DNA of 64,000 nucleotides from a virus: positions 1-64,000 of IMG/VR virus record IMGVR_UViG_3300009160_000029; one strand, written 5' to 3'. The notes beneath the pieces were generated by a model, which saw only the letters and a list, made by a program, of their open reading frames with translations, was not told the DNA's origin and made no database searches. Positions 43,906 to 49,425 of this stretch are shown in pieces. Each line of letters begins with the position of its first letter. Position 1 is the first letter of the stretch. The translations under genes and the position numbers were made by a program.

Positions 43906-45204
43906 ATGACAACAAAAGTGATAACCGCAGCAACTAAAGTTGATTGTGAGCATTTGCTTGCGACTTTTGTAGATCATTCACACTATGACACTTTGGTGGA
44001 ATATGATTGTGATTTCTATGCTCCATCTGTAGATGGGATAAACAGCGAGAAAAACATTCTGTTTAAGTTTAGAAAAAATTGGTTTACGAAAGAGCAACAA
44101 GACTTAGCATATAAAGGTCTTCGAGAAGCAGCAGTCGAAACACAAAATCGTGGCATAGCAGCAGGACCAAAAGGTTCAAAACTTGGTGGTCGTGACTGGG
44201 TGACGGAATATCAAGAAGAAATGCTTGAAGCATTATCTAAGTATGAAACTACACTTGATGGTTCTAATCCTATAACAACAATCACAGAAAAATATAAAAA
44301 CAAAGATAAAACAGCAGCAGGAAACAGAGGATCTGTTTGGCTTAAGAATAAAGTCACTGATGAAGGATTTATCTTTGAAGAGTGGTTAAATGAAATAAAA
44401 TCATTATCTCGTGATGAAATAGTGAAAGAAGCAATACGAGTAAAGTCTAAATTGACTTCAACAACTTCATATGCGCAAGCAGTGTGGTCTGGTATTGCTG
44501 GATATTTTGATAGATATCCTCGTATTCCTTATGGAAGAGCAACATCATTTACTGAAAAGAATCCTGAGAAATTTGCTATGGGGTTCCCATTCTTACAAAA
44601 ACTTTCAGATGGTTTTAAACAATTACTGCCTGAACGTTTTGCGAAACAAAAAGAAGCATGTGACAAAATGGATCCAAAGTTTATTATTCCAGGAACTGTA
44701 TTTACTACAGCGACTGTAAATAAAACTTTTAGAACAGCAGCACATAGAGATGCTGGTGATTTAAATGAAGGATTTAGTAATCTTACAGTAGTATCAAACA
44801 ATGGTAAGTACAAAGGAGGTTATCTAGTACTACCAGAATACAAAGTTGCTGTAAATATACGTCCAGGAGATTTATTATTAATTAACAATCACGAGGGTAT
44901 TCATGGAAATACTGAAATGACTGTTGAAGATCCTGAAGCAGAACGTATTTCTTTCGTTTGTTATTTCAGAGAAAAGATGCTAGAACTTGGCTCTTGGAAT
45001 TATGAATTAACAAGAAAAAATTACGTTGAAGATAGACGTAGAAATAAAGACCATCCATTACAAAGAGAACTTTGGAATGGAGTTTCAGAAAATATGTGGA
45101 AAGATCAAGAATGGTATGATTATCTAACATCTAAATTAGGTAAAGAATCATTATACAAATACCATCCTGAAGCAAATAAATCTTCACTTGAAGCATTTTT
45201 TTAA
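43906..45204 (+). CDS. TET/JBP-like 2OG-Fe(II) dioxygenase, putative DNA base oxidase
   Basis: 432 residues. The catalytic double-stranded beta-helix is in the C-terminal half: iron site H280-R-D282 (AAHRDAGD), the strand GGYLVLPEY, the RPGDLLLINNHEGIHGN block with the distal His (H333, or H329) and Arg347 (ERISFVCYF) for 2-oxoglutarate. The order HxD, GG-L-LPE, GDLL, H, R is that of the TET/JBP family, which oxidises 5-methylcytosine or thymine in DNA. The N-terminal ~200 residues are charged and may bind DNA. It starts 15 bp after the gp41 helicase stop and precedes a glycosyltransferase by 2 bp. Expected product: a hydroxymethylated base. Substrate not determined. Confidence 0.8.
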   Translation: MTTKVITAATKVDCEHLLATFVDHSHYDTLVEYDCDFYAPSVDGINSEKNILFKFRKNWFTKEQQDLAYKGLREAAVETQNRGIAAGPKGSKLGGRDWVTEYQEEMLEALSKYETTLDGSNPITTITEKYKNKDKTAAGNRGSVWLKNKVTDEGFIFEEWLNEIKSLSRDEIVKEAIRVKSKLTSTTSYAQAVWSGIAGYFDRYPRIPYGRATSFTEKNPEKFAMGFPFLQKLSDGFKQLLPERFAKQKEACDKMDPKFIIPGTVFTTATVNKTFRTAAHRDAGDLNEGFSNLTVVSNNGKYKGGYLVLPEYKVAVNIRPGDLLLINNHEGIHGNTEMTVEDPEAERISFVCYFREKMLELGSWNYELTRKNYVEDRRRNKDHPLQRELWNGVSENMWKDQEWYDYLTSKLGKESLYKYHPEANKSSLEAFF

Positions 45205-45206
45205 AC

Positions 45207-46211
45207 ATGTCTCTCCATGAATTTTTAGGAGAGGAACGAGCACTAGATTGGTATTATACTGCTAATTCTTTAAACAAGGGATTAAAACTTGGTTATCGGA
45301 GAGTATCTGGTAAGATAGGATTAACAAATAAAGAATCTGGTGTTCGTGGCGCATGGGTAGAAAAAAGAATTGCACTCTTTAAGAACTTATTCGCATCTGG
45401 TTATTCAATAATTCCTTTTTCAACACCAACAGAAGCAACAGCAGCAGATGGATTTACATCTGTTGATACATACACAAATTGTGATATACTTATATTAGAA
45501 TTTGGTGGAACAAATTTACAATTCTATAAAAAAGATTGGGACAAAACAGTTGAACTGATTAAGTCACATTCTGGTAAAATAATATTCATTAACGACGATC
45601 CTGATCTACCATTTCTTTGGGAGTTATTACCAAATGAAAAATGGGATAGATGGGTAGTCGCAGCAAACGCAACCAACTCTGCAGAAGTTTCAACAATTCT
45701 TAAATGCCCAATAGGTGTAAGAGTTGTAGATTTACCAATGGCGAATGGAATGTCATTTGAATCTTTTTCAAATGGTGATATAGATAAAACTGTTTATATC
45801 GGAAGACCAAATGGAAGAACAAAATACTTCAAAGAATTTTTAAAGTCATCAAGTCTTGAAATATCAGGAAAACCAAAAGAGTGGACTGATTTTAATATAA
45901 ACGTTATTGAAAATCCACAACAAAAAGATCGAAGAAAATTTTATAGAAATTATAAAGGATGTTTAACTGTTTATGATAGTAAGCATAAAACATCTGGATG
46001 GAGAACTGGTCGTGCTTTTCATGCACTTTATGCTGGTATTCCAGTTTGTGCACCATCTGGAAATAATGGTTTAAATTGGACATATCCTGTAGAAACTGCA
46101 GAGGACTTAACTAAATTTACATCGTTATCAGATGAAAAACGTAAATTGATTTGGGAAAAACAAAAATCAATTATTCAAAATGAAACAAATATAGATTTAA
46201 TTTTATTATGA
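45207..46211 (+). CDS. Putative GT-B glycosyltransferase, likely DNA-base glycosylating
   Basis: 334 residues, 2 bp after the dioxygenase. The N-terminal half has Rossmann-like strands (CDILILEFGG, KIIFINDDP). The C-terminal half has TVYIGRPNGRTKYFKEFL and the block YDSKHKTSGWRTGRAFHALYAGIPVCAP, whose H...R..E/R-F-x-A-L-x-A-G pattern fits the sugar-nucleotide pocket of GT-B enzymes such as T4 alpha-glucosyltransferase. With its neighbour, it could add glucose to 5-hydroxymethyl-pyrimidine in DNA. Overall sequence identity to T4 AGT/BGT is not evident. Confidence 0.68.
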   Translation: MSLHEFLGEERALDWYYTANSLNKGLKLGYRRVSGKIGLTNKESGVRGAWVEKRIALFKNLFASGYSIIPFSTPTEATAADGFTSVDTYTNCDILILEFGGTNLQFYKKDWDKTVELIKSHSGKIIFINDDPDLPFLWELLPNEKWDRWVVAANATNSAEVSTILKCPIGVRVVDLPMANGMSFESFSNGDIDKTVYIGRPNGRTKYFKEFLKSSSLEISGKPKEWTDFNINVIENPQQKDRRKFYRNYKGCLTVYDSKHKTSGWRTGRAFHALYAGIPVCAPSGNNGLNWTYPVETAEDLTKFTSLSDEKRKLIWEKQKSIIQNETNIDLILL

Positions 46212-46657
46212 TAGTATCTTACGATATGGATGGTGTTCTTGCACTAAACCCACCACCAAATATAAAAAAATGGGGACATATGAATGGGGCTGAAAGAAGA
46301 GCAAGAAAAGAATTTCTATATGATTGGTATAGTTCTGCTGAACTATTATATAAACCAACTGAAGATAAATTTCATGTAATTTCAGCAAGAAAGAAAGACC
46401 AACGCACATGGGAAATAACGATGAATTGGTTAAATAAATATTTTCCTGGAAGAGTAATTTCATTATCTTTATTAAATGTACCAAGAACTGTGAACAATGT
46501 AGTAAAGTTTAAGAATGATGCGATTAACTCAATTGGTGCAATCGAGCATACTGAAGATAATAAAAAAGTATTAAGAGGTATTTCAAAAATTAATAAGACT
46601 ATTAAATTATACTTTTGGGAAAAGGATATGACAAACAAGGAAATATTCAATGGCTAA
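46208..46657 (+). CDS. HAD-like phosphatase
   Basis: 149 residues, overlapping the glycosyltransferase stop by 4 nt. The YDMDGVL motif (Asp6 nucleophile, Asp8 acid/base) is the HAD signature. A later FHVISARKKDQRTWE block gives the Ser and Lys/Arg, and the KNDAINSIGAIEHTEDNKKV block supplies the acidic motif. Perhaps a nucleotide or sugar-phosphate phosphatase assisting modification or salvage. It is shorter than T4 PseT and lacks a kinase domain. Confidence 0.7.
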   Translation: MIVSYDMDGVLALNPPPNIKKWGHMNGAERRARKEFLYDWYSSAELLYKPTEDKFHVISARKKDQRTWEITMNWLNKYFPGRVISLSLLNVPRTVNNVVKFKNDAINSIGAIEHTEDNKKVLRGISKINKTIKLYFWEKDMTNKEIFNG

Positions 46658-47240
46658 AAACTATTTTCATTTAAAACTTCCTTTTAAAGACCCTTTAAGT
46701 GAAAAAGGTATGACGTGGTTTCACAATCTACCACCTTGTTTTATACAAGTACCAAATCAATATTTTAATCCAGAAGCTGTTGAGTTTTTTAAAAAACATA
46801 AATTACTCTATTGGGATGCTGAGGTTTTTTCATTTCCTGCAAATTACAAAATGGAAATACATGTTGATGCTGTTGAGTTTTCAGAAAAATGTAAATTAAA
46901 TTGGGCTTATAGTAAAGGAGACCATCATAATCTTTGGTTTAAACCAAAACCATCTTGGATACCAAGAGCAACTGACGGAGAACAAAACGATGGACGTTAT
47001 GATGACTACAGCTACACTTTTGAAGAAAATGAAGTTGAAGAAGTTGAAAGAACTACTGTAAGAACACCAACTTGTATAGTAAGTGGTCAGCCACATAGTG
47101 TGCGAACATATAGTGAGCCAAGAAAAGCAATTTCTGTCACTCTATATCCATATGGAACTAATCCACCAGCTTTACCAAAAGACTGGGGAATGCCAATATC
47201 AAACATGAAAGAGGTTTTAAATGATTACATCGTTGATTAG
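46650..47240 (+). CDS. HxD...H beta-helix protein, putative 2OG-Fe(II) oxygenase (copy 1)
   Basis: 196 residues, overlapping the phosphatase gene by 8 nt. His71-x-Asp73 (MEIHVDA) and a distal His149 (SGQPHSV) with nearby Arg152/Arg158 and AISVTL strand fit a double-stranded beta-helix oxygenase. The segment KLNWAYSKGDHHNLWFKPK (82-100) aligns with KMNFSYGDSNAYMEWFKFK of the 47502 protein at the same offset from HxD. Residues 110-138 are an acidic loop. Function unknown; operon context suggests base or nucleotide modification. Confidence 0.6.
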   Translation: MAKNYFHLKLPFKDPLSEKGMTWFHNLPPCFIQVPNQYFNPEAVEFFKKHKLLYWDAEVFSFPANYKMEIHVDAVEFSEKCKLNWAYSKGDHHNLWFKPKPSWIPRATDGEQNDGRYDDYSYTFEENEVEEVERTTVRTPTCIVSGQPHSVRTYSEPRKAISVTLYPYGTNPPALPKDWGMPISNMKEVLNDYIVD

Positions 47241-47397
47241 AACAATCCTTTGGGGATTTGTTAATATTTTATTCTGGATAGTTATAGCAACACTATTCTC
47301 TCTTATGATATTTACAATATTCATAGGATATGCACTTGAAAGAATGGGGCATTTTATAGATTGGGTATTTAAACATGAAAAGAAATCCAGTAGCTAA
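47221..47397 (+). CDS. Small membrane protein, 58 aa
   Basis: ATG 47221 overlaps the preceding gene by 20 nt. One or two hydrophobic segments (ILWGFVNILFWIVIATLFSLMIFTIFIGYA is split here: residues 9-26 and 27-38). Short charged tail. Unknown. Confidence 0.5.
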   Translation: MITSLIRTILWGFVNILFWIVIATLFSLMIFTIFIGYALERMGHFIDWVFKHEKKSSS

Positions 47398-47509
47398 ATC
47401 TTTAAGAACACCCAAATTTAAACAAAAGATTGTAAAGAATAAAAAACAGTATAGCAGAAAAAATAAAACAATAGAAGAAATTAATCATCACTTTGAAATA
47501 TATGAATAA
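47375..47509 (+). CDS. Small very basic protein, 44 aa
   Basis: ATG 47375 overlaps the previous gene by 23 nt and its stop overlaps the next ATG. The N-terminal RNPVAKSLRTPKFKQKIVKN, with 11 Lys/Arg up to residue 32, suits RNA or DNA binding. Similar short basic proteins are, as far as I recall, common in T4-like phages; unverified. Confidence 0.5.
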   Translation: MKRNPVAKSLRTPKFKQKIVKNKKQYSRKNKTIEEINHHFEIYE

Positions 47510-48098
47510 ACAATACGATTCTAATTTTTTTTTTCATTTAAAAGAACAATTTGATCCACTACAAAATATGGAAATAATTAAAAAATTTCCTACAGGAAAA
47601 CATATTTTAGATAAAAATTATGCATCACCTAATCTTAAATCTTTTGAAACTGATATATTCGAAATAGCTCAAATAGAGTTATTCGTCACTCCAGCTGGAG
47701 GAAAACTAGGTACTCATATTGATTCAGGATCACCAAGTGGTTCAGTTAAAATGAATTTTAGTTATGGTGATTCTAATGCTTATATGGAATGGTTTAAATT
47801 TAAAAACGGAATGGCTATACCTGTAAATGAATGGATTGATGCTAGAGATTCTGAGATGGATCAAGAGACAGATCAAGATAAAATCACATTAAGATATCGC
47901 GATAATGATTGTGAACTTATTTGTTCAGAACTTATAAGAAGACCATCAATTGTAAATGTTTCAATTCCCCATGGATTAAATTGTGAAAACAGTGATATAA
48001 AATGTATGACTGTTGCTGTTCTATTTGAACAATATTTAAATAATGAATGGAATAAAATTACAATGCCAAAGGCATTAGAATTATGGGGTGATAGATGA
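47502..48098 (+). CDS. HxD...H beta-helix protein, putative 2OG-Fe(II) oxygenase (copy 2)
   Basis: 198 residues from ATG 47502 (a TTG 9 nt upstream is rejected). His72-x-Asp74 (GTHIDSG), distal His157 (VSIPHGLN) and strand CMTVAVLF. It is a paralogue of the 46650 protein, with the block 83-101 aligned. GGKLGTHIDSGSPS resembles cupin/aspartyl-hydroxylase-like iron sites. No Arg in the usual 2OG place is obvious, so co-substrate is uncertain. Confidence 0.58.
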   Translation: MNKQYDSNFFFHLKEQFDPLQNMEIIKKFPTGKHILDKNYASPNLKSFETDIFEIAQIELFVTPAGGKLGTHIDSGSPSGSVKMNFSYGDSNAYMEWFKFKNGMAIPVNEWIDARDSEMDQETDQDKITLRYRDNDCELICSELIRRPSIVNVSIPHGLNCENSDIKCMTVAVLFEQYLNNEWNKITMPKALELWGDR

Positions 48099-48936: not shown

Positions 48937-49425
48937 ATGGCATATATTACTTTTAGAGGGGGAACAAAAGAACAGAAAAAACTAGCTAAATCATTAGCTG
49001 AGTTTTGTCTTAAAAAACTCATTTCATCTCGTCTAAGTAATACATTAGATATTCGTATAGTATTTAAACCAACACTCTACACAAAAACAGAGTCGTATGG
49101 TGAAACTACCTATTATGAAGATTCAAATATACCACCAAAAGACTTCCTTGTAGAAATAGATTCAAAATTAAAAATGAGAAGTATGCTTGAAACAATTGCT
49201 CACGAGTTGGTTCATGTAAAACAATGGGCTACTGGTGAGATGAGAGAAACTAAAGATAATTTTATTACTAAATTTAAAAAAGACACCATTAATTCAAACA
49301 AAGTAAATTATTGGGATCAACCATGGGAAATAGAAGCGATGGGTAGAGAAGAAGGATTGTTTATTCAATGGGTTGAAGAAATGAATTTGTCTGAACAAAC
49401 TTGGACTAAACGAAAGTATTTCTAA
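48937..49425 (+). CDS. Metallopeptidase-like protein with HExxH (SprT-like)
   Basis: 162 residues. TIAHELVHVKQW has the zinc motif H89-E90-x-x-H93, and PWEIEAMGRE (129-138) can give the third ligand Glu132. SprT/peptidase families show this pattern. It has a late promoter and overlaps the next gene by 1 nt, so it may act late or be packaged (prohead maturation, lysis or host protein removal). Confidence 0.72.
   Translation: MAYITFRGGTKEQKKLAKSLAEFCLKKLISSRLSNTLDIRIVFKPTLYTKTESYGETTYYEDSNIPPKDFLVEIDSKLKMRSMLETIAHELVHVKQWATGEMRETKDNFITKFKKDTINSNKVNYWDQPWEIEAMGREEGLFIQWVEEMNLSEQTWTKRKYF

Follow-up and report, generated by a model that had tools for sequence, protein, structure and literature searches.

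What do two related proteins do whose genes stand immediately beyond a TET/JBP-type dioxygenase gene in a phage genome: do they share in the modification of DNA bases, or do they belong to a different pathway? The window analysed here is a 64,000-nucleotide stretch (positions 1 to 64,000) of the virus record IMGVR_UViG_3300009160_000029, which is 99,969 bases long. The genes for protein A (46650-47240, 196 aa) and protein B (47502-48098, with the start ATG at 47502, 198 aa) lie on the plus strand, as do the other window features between 43906 and 48098 described below. A small ORF (47221-47397, 58 aa) overlaps the 3' end of A. Collected viral loci are referred to by L numbers.

Two paralogous proteins with an oxygenase motif

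A and B are paralogs by BLASTP (E = 2e-12, 23% identity over 168 aligned amino acids), in agreement with a preliminary description made from the sequence. That description had named an HxD at residue 71/72, a K(L/M)N(W/F) block and a distal histidine at 149/157, and each of these residues was found and aligned between the proteins: H71, D73 and H149 of A align with H72, D74 and H157 of B in the family alignment, and a K-L/M-N-W/F...W-F-K-x-K block is common to both. The predicted iron ligands of A are the HxD (46860-46868), whose H71 lies within model strand 70-72, and H149 (47094-47096), which opens strand 149-153. In B, alignment and model place the HxD at 47715-47723, and H157 (47970-47972) opens strand 157-160. 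A basic residue follows the distal histidine by ~9-11 positions and is predicted to bind 2-oxoglutarate (2OG). In A this is R158 (47121-47123), nine residues past H149, which opens the last core strand (158-167) and would contact the 2OG carboxylate; in B it is K167 (48000-48002), ten residues past H157 and immediately preceding strand 168-179.

Orthologues of A were found in 20 viral contigs and of B in 10. The earlier reading had been made to depend on conservation of the HxD in relatives; its histidine and aspartate are kept in 28 of 30 non-redundant family members, A and B included, and the distal histidine in all 30. Arginine occupies the 2OG position in 20 of the 30 and is lost in a few. 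Values of dN/dS (NG86) of 0.12-0.27 for A and 0.30-0.44 for B indicate purifying selection; one B pair is too close for judgement (dN 0.025, dS 0.027).

AlphaFold2 models, built from alignments of the collected loci, have the strand order of a double-stranded beta-helix (DSBH) in both cases (A: pLDDT 87.9, pTM 0.82; B: pLDDT 81.0, pTM 0.78). Among the matches listed by VIA-align, 2OG-Fe(II) oxygenases predominate overwhelmingly for A and for B, and the structural neighbours of the family include proline 3-hydroxylase, PHD2 and AspH. The best Z scores are moderate (9.2 for A, 9.1 for B), and the tool warns that a Z near 8 may reflect a common arrangement. The top PDB matches of A in Foldseek include cupins with a TM of only ~0.3; VIA-align ranks 2OG oxygenases first. 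The nearest viral models in Foldseek are uncharacterised proteins of 'uncultured Caudovirales phage' (TM 0.82 and 0.76). The beta-helix fold foreseen for both proteins is thus what the models and their oxygenase matches predict. The fold and the family membership of A and B are well supported, and, on the models, both proteins very probably belong to the 2OG-Fe(II) superfamily. Fold and residues together support Fe(II)/2OG chemistry, and we predict that A and B are iron-dependent oxygenases in which all catalytic residues are retained.

It had also been suggested that one of the oxygenase-like proteins might be a non-catalytic partner. This does not fit A or B, whose catalytic residues are complete, and is plausible instead for other members, in which the HxD has been lost. 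Proteins L039:14240-14938 and L042:14176-14868 have extra sequence inserted ahead of the metal motif, in which H-Y-S stands in place of the HxD, with loss of its aspartate; they are likely to be non-catalytic or altered. A halogenase-like HxG was considered for L039:14240-14938 and rejected, as the alignment has H-Y-S at that site, and the protein was therefore treated as degenerate. The HxD is also missing from the gene that opens each of the L222 and L226 arrays, described below. Judged by their sequences, such HxD-less array members may be non-catalytic partners.

For A, B and their aligned relatives, no convincing match turned up among the profiles of Pfam, PHROGs and NCBIfam or among PDB sequences; neither A and B (Pfam, NCBIfam) nor the members of a 20-sequence alignment (Pfam) match a profile above the cut-off. 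We therefore regard them as an undescribed sequence family. PADLOC yielded nothing usable for family assignment, and matches to an antibody light chain (A1 profile), MspI and PADLOC REase_II were discarded as noise. The phrog_3978 profile ('endonuclease') weakly matches A (E = 4.7e-4 and 0.011) over a partial stretch of ~95 residues, and the match is limited to one member in the alignment scan. Cyanophage proteins named 'DNA endonuclease V', such as P-SSM2 Q58MQ0, share the fold in Foldseek, and 'endonuclease' may be a misannotation. A tblastn search of isolated phages (INPHARED) with A, B and three paralogs gave no match, and every record that carries the family is metagenomic. Relatives were found neither for A nor for the ketoacyl synthase discussed below in two pattern scans of cellular genomes; since the scans require near-exact 8-mers, this absence is weak evidence.

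The TET/JBP-type neighbour

The gene run that leads into A includes the TET/JBP-type dioxygenase (43906-45204; PF12851, E = 2.4e-23; phrog_24024, E = 7e-173), an assignment of the preliminary description that the profiles confirm. The protein lies outside the A/B family; it alone matches PF12851, which A and B do not. It is followed by a glycosyltransferase-like protein (45207-46211; weak PF13524 match, E = 0.12) and a polynucleotide-kinase/HAD-like protein (46208-46657; weak phrog_415 match, E = 0.007), which shares 8 nt with the start of A. Scans of 43.7-48.4 kb for promoters and terminators revealed no clear signal that would divide A and B from TET. The three-gene module 43906-46657 is a probable DNA hypermodification cassette, and recurs without A and B in L130-L132, L136, L145 and L148. 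Beyond B, the window encodes a putative metallopeptidase-like protein (48937-49425; phrog_10499, E = 1.4e-29; DUF6782, E = 6e-4).

Association of the family with TET was counted at loci with at least 3 kb of downstream sequence. At 31 of 46 such loci the family is absent, and six of these 31 have the TET-glycosyltransferase pair. Where the identity to the window's TET is 75% or more, family members are present at all 13 loci; they occur at 2 of 16 with 60-75% identity and at none of 17 below 60%. A partnership with TET as the main function was dropped as the best reading after these counts. The proposal that the proteins act stepwise with TET on the base was not supported either: TET, with or without the glycosyltransferase, commonly occurs without the family, whose arrays adjoin a different gene instead.

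Tandem arrays upstream of a phage beta-ketoacyl-ACP synthase

The record of which the window is part holds five family members. Three lie outside the window, at 83.6-85.7 kb of the record, directly upstream of a beta-ketoacyl-ACP synthase (KAS) gene (PF00109/PF02801 matches; fabF model, E = 1.8e-62). A related contig, the record of L019, has seven, namely A and six in tandem before KAS. Paralogs of A and B directly upstream of a phage KAS are the rule among the KAS loci collected. Where at least 2.5 kb of upstream sequence was available, 22 of 24 KAS loci have 2, 3 or 6 members together with a desaturase, and the other two have neither. Two additional loci, L222 and L226 (lineage III), carry five members each, in overlapping genes that run into KAS; a desaturase was not detected in these two arrays. 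Altogether, of the 26 KAS loci with sufficient sequence ahead of the gene, 24 have 2-6 members immediately upstream. The arrays are usually preceded by a fatty-acid desaturase, their genes often overlap or abut KAS, and the orthologous groups within them are distinct and conserved. For the counts over 46 TET and 24 KAS loci, one locus per contig was taken within each search. The KAS of the window's lineage is ~55-58% identical to that of the other two. At least three lineages have kept the neighbourhood, probably by descent, so that locus counts are not independent events and the linkage would have been inherited and would not represent many separate origins.

The surroundings of the arrays differ. 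In lineage II (L189-L201), whose proteins are supported as family members by profile-profile comparison (E = 2.8e-10 and 4.8e-9), FabI (E = 6.8e-78) and AcpS (PF01648) are encoded just upstream of the array, and the two longest records have a gene for an ACP domain (PF00550) at another place. L168:3558-9709 and L169:8756-15153 (G014 and G015) combine FabI, AcpS, a desaturase and KAS with two family oxygenases, and an ACP-domain protein is encoded in another part of the record; this fatty-acid synthesis set is unusually complete for a phage. No FabI-type, ACP or AcpS match was found in the window's own record. Its KAS is followed by genes for an AdoMet decarboxylase, an amidinotransferase-like protein and several hydroxylases of the PF05118 type; L033:10985-15895 and L034:6-536 (86,984 to ~92,540 of the record) cover this segment, with 4-5 tandem PF05118-type paralogs. 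These paralogs form a second oxygenase expansion, without profile similarity to the A/B family. A class III aminotransferase (L034:3299-4519; PF00202, E = 9.6e-41) lies ~10 kb beyond KAS in the same record. An FkbM-type methyltransferase (L033:706-1563; PF05050, E = 7e-15) is encoded upstream of the array, and L081 has a similar ORF. More 2OG-oxygenase-like motifs occur in L035 (2747-3307, 5770-6468 and 6395-7159), of which the first alone weakly matches PF13640 (E = 0.0024). L193:6004-7176 and L198:5598-6770 are lone phage KAS genes in the vicinity of replication genes, with neither oxygenases nor a desaturase; ORFs resembling the metallopeptidase-like protein of the window adjoin both.

The arrays also bear on the origin of A and B. 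In L222 and L226 the third place of the array is taken by an orthologue of A, which is 52% and 46% identical to it, respectively; TET was not found on the L222 record, which is a fragment. In the family tree, whose deep joins are weak and for which the tool warns of long branches, B is closest to members of the KAS/Asp-hydroxylase cluster, namely the proteins of L039/L042 (support 100/99), and A groups with another array member at weaker support (88/87). A and B are not sister paralogs in this tree, and we therefore discarded the idea of a recent tandem pair. From their separate positions, A and B look like two separately displaced or copied array members that were not paired on the spot, and we infer that the movement was from the array to the TET site.

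Possible substrates and relation to known oxygenases

We propose that A and B are Fe(II)/2OG oxygenases competent for catalysis: Fe(II) would be bound by the H-x-D...H residues, and 2OG by the basic residue at the last core strand. The home of the family would be the tandem array of 2-6 diverged paralogs directly before KAS. There, each paralog would most likely hydroxylate its own position or its own intermediate of an acyl-ACP-derived chain, or of a small molecule, produced or elongated with this KAS, and A and B would have reached their place next to TET by displacement or copying. Since the family usually stands in rows beside KAS, acyl chains or small molecules are likelier targets than DNA bases; an acyl substrate as such we infer solely from the gene neighbours. 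Against it stand the position of A and B in the window's phage, where they adjoin TET and not KAS, and the AdoMet decarboxylase and amidinotransferase-like genes near lineage I arrays, as well as the probable common ancestry of the arrays, the missing FabI-type, ACP and AcpS matches in the window's record, the lineage III arrays with no desaturase detected and the KAS genes of L193 and L198, which have no family members beside them. Taken as a whole, the reading of A and B as hydroxylases of a phage acyl or small-molecule tailoring array that have come secondarily to lie beside TET has, in our estimate, an even chance of being correct.

Four other explanations were weighed against this one. 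A and B might work with TET and the adjacent glycosyltransferase on modified bases of the phage DNA or on nucleotide precursors, as their place in one tightly packed gene run and the invariable presence of the family beside close relatives of this TET would suggest. We consider this unlikely in view of the many TET loci free of the family, some of them with the glycosyltransferase in place, of the members that the window's record carries at KAS, a long way from TET, and of the A orthologue within the L222 and L226 arrays. It is likewise improbable that the targets are amino-acid side chains in proteins of the virion or the host, hydroxylated in the manner of prolyl or Asp/Asn hydroxylases. Such enzymes are among the structural neighbours, and PF05118-type hydroxylase genes follow lineage I arrays; however, a structural Z of 7.5-9 cannot tell substrate classes apart, there is no sequence-level tie to the PF05118 group, and the immediate conserved neighbour is KAS.

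The AdoMet decarboxylase and amidinotransferase-like neighbours keep a non-lipid small molecule in play. KAS, these two enzymes, the aminotransferase and the oxygenases might together yield, for example, a guanidine or polyamine derivative, and the two genes do follow KAS in both the window's record and lineage I contigs, with the aminotransferase farther along in the former. Yet lineages II and III retain KAS and the oxygenases without such genes alongside (the AdoMet decarboxylase of L225 is 6.5 kb off), and speD by itself is common in cyanophages (PMC3037559), which leaves this route rather doubtful. Finally, the diverged oxygenases might be general consumers that mainly draw down 2OG or alter the nitrogen or energy state, as has been proposed for cyanophages (PMC3037559). 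T4-like cyanophages are indeed known for many 2OG-type genes, but neither the placement before KAS nor the conserved, distinct orthologous groups in the arrays would be explained, and we regard general 2OG consumption as highly improbable.

If the tailoring reading is extended to the phages themselves, certain T4-like lineages would possess a dedicated acyl-chain tailoring pathway in which KAS and up to six oxygenases hydroxylating in sequence make a virus-specific oxidised lipid or small molecule, with FabI, AcpS, ACP and a desaturase added to KAS in some lineages. We put this forward tentatively. The product would then remodel the host envelope or otherwise serve infection. The physical tie to KAS, with FabI, AcpS, ACP and desaturase in relatives, provides a concrete and testable class of substrates, and the family can now be separated from TET-type DNA modification genes, with which its neighbourhood could confuse it.

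A and B resemble Fe(II)/2OG oxygenases such as proline 3-hydroxylase (1e5r), a nucleoside-antibiotic hydroxylase (7v4f), PHD2 and AlkB/ALKBH5 in the DSBH, the HxD...H and the basic residue that opens the last core strand, but differ from known families in having no significant profile or PDB-sequence match. TET/JBP dioxygenases (PF12851) belong to the same superfamily and are adjacent in the window, whereas A and B lack the PF12851 signature and are smaller (~197 aa). The Asp/Asn beta-hydroxylases of PF05118, a family that includes the lipid A acyl hydroxylase LpxO, are also of 2OG type; A and B have no Pfam match to them, and hhalign against the phage's own PF05118-type group gave a probability of 1.1%. 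The likeness of A to phrog_3978 is a weak, partial profile match and that to Q58MQ0 a structural one.

There is a parallel in T4-like cyanophages, which carry 2OG-Fe(II) oxygenases in multiple copies, 1-5 per genome and 24 in S-SCSM1 (PMC9602691; PMC3037559); effects on 2OG levels and DNA repair have been suggested for these expansions (PMC3037559; PMC9602691). As in the A/B family, many diverged paralogs occur in one T4-like phage genome. The S-SCSM1 oxygenases, however, are of PF13640, PF13661, PF13759 and PF05721, whereas the A/B family matches none of these and is arrayed before KAS. Expansion of 2OG oxygenases in T4-like cyanophages is known; on the A/B family itself and its array at KAS, no report was found in the part of the literature covered.
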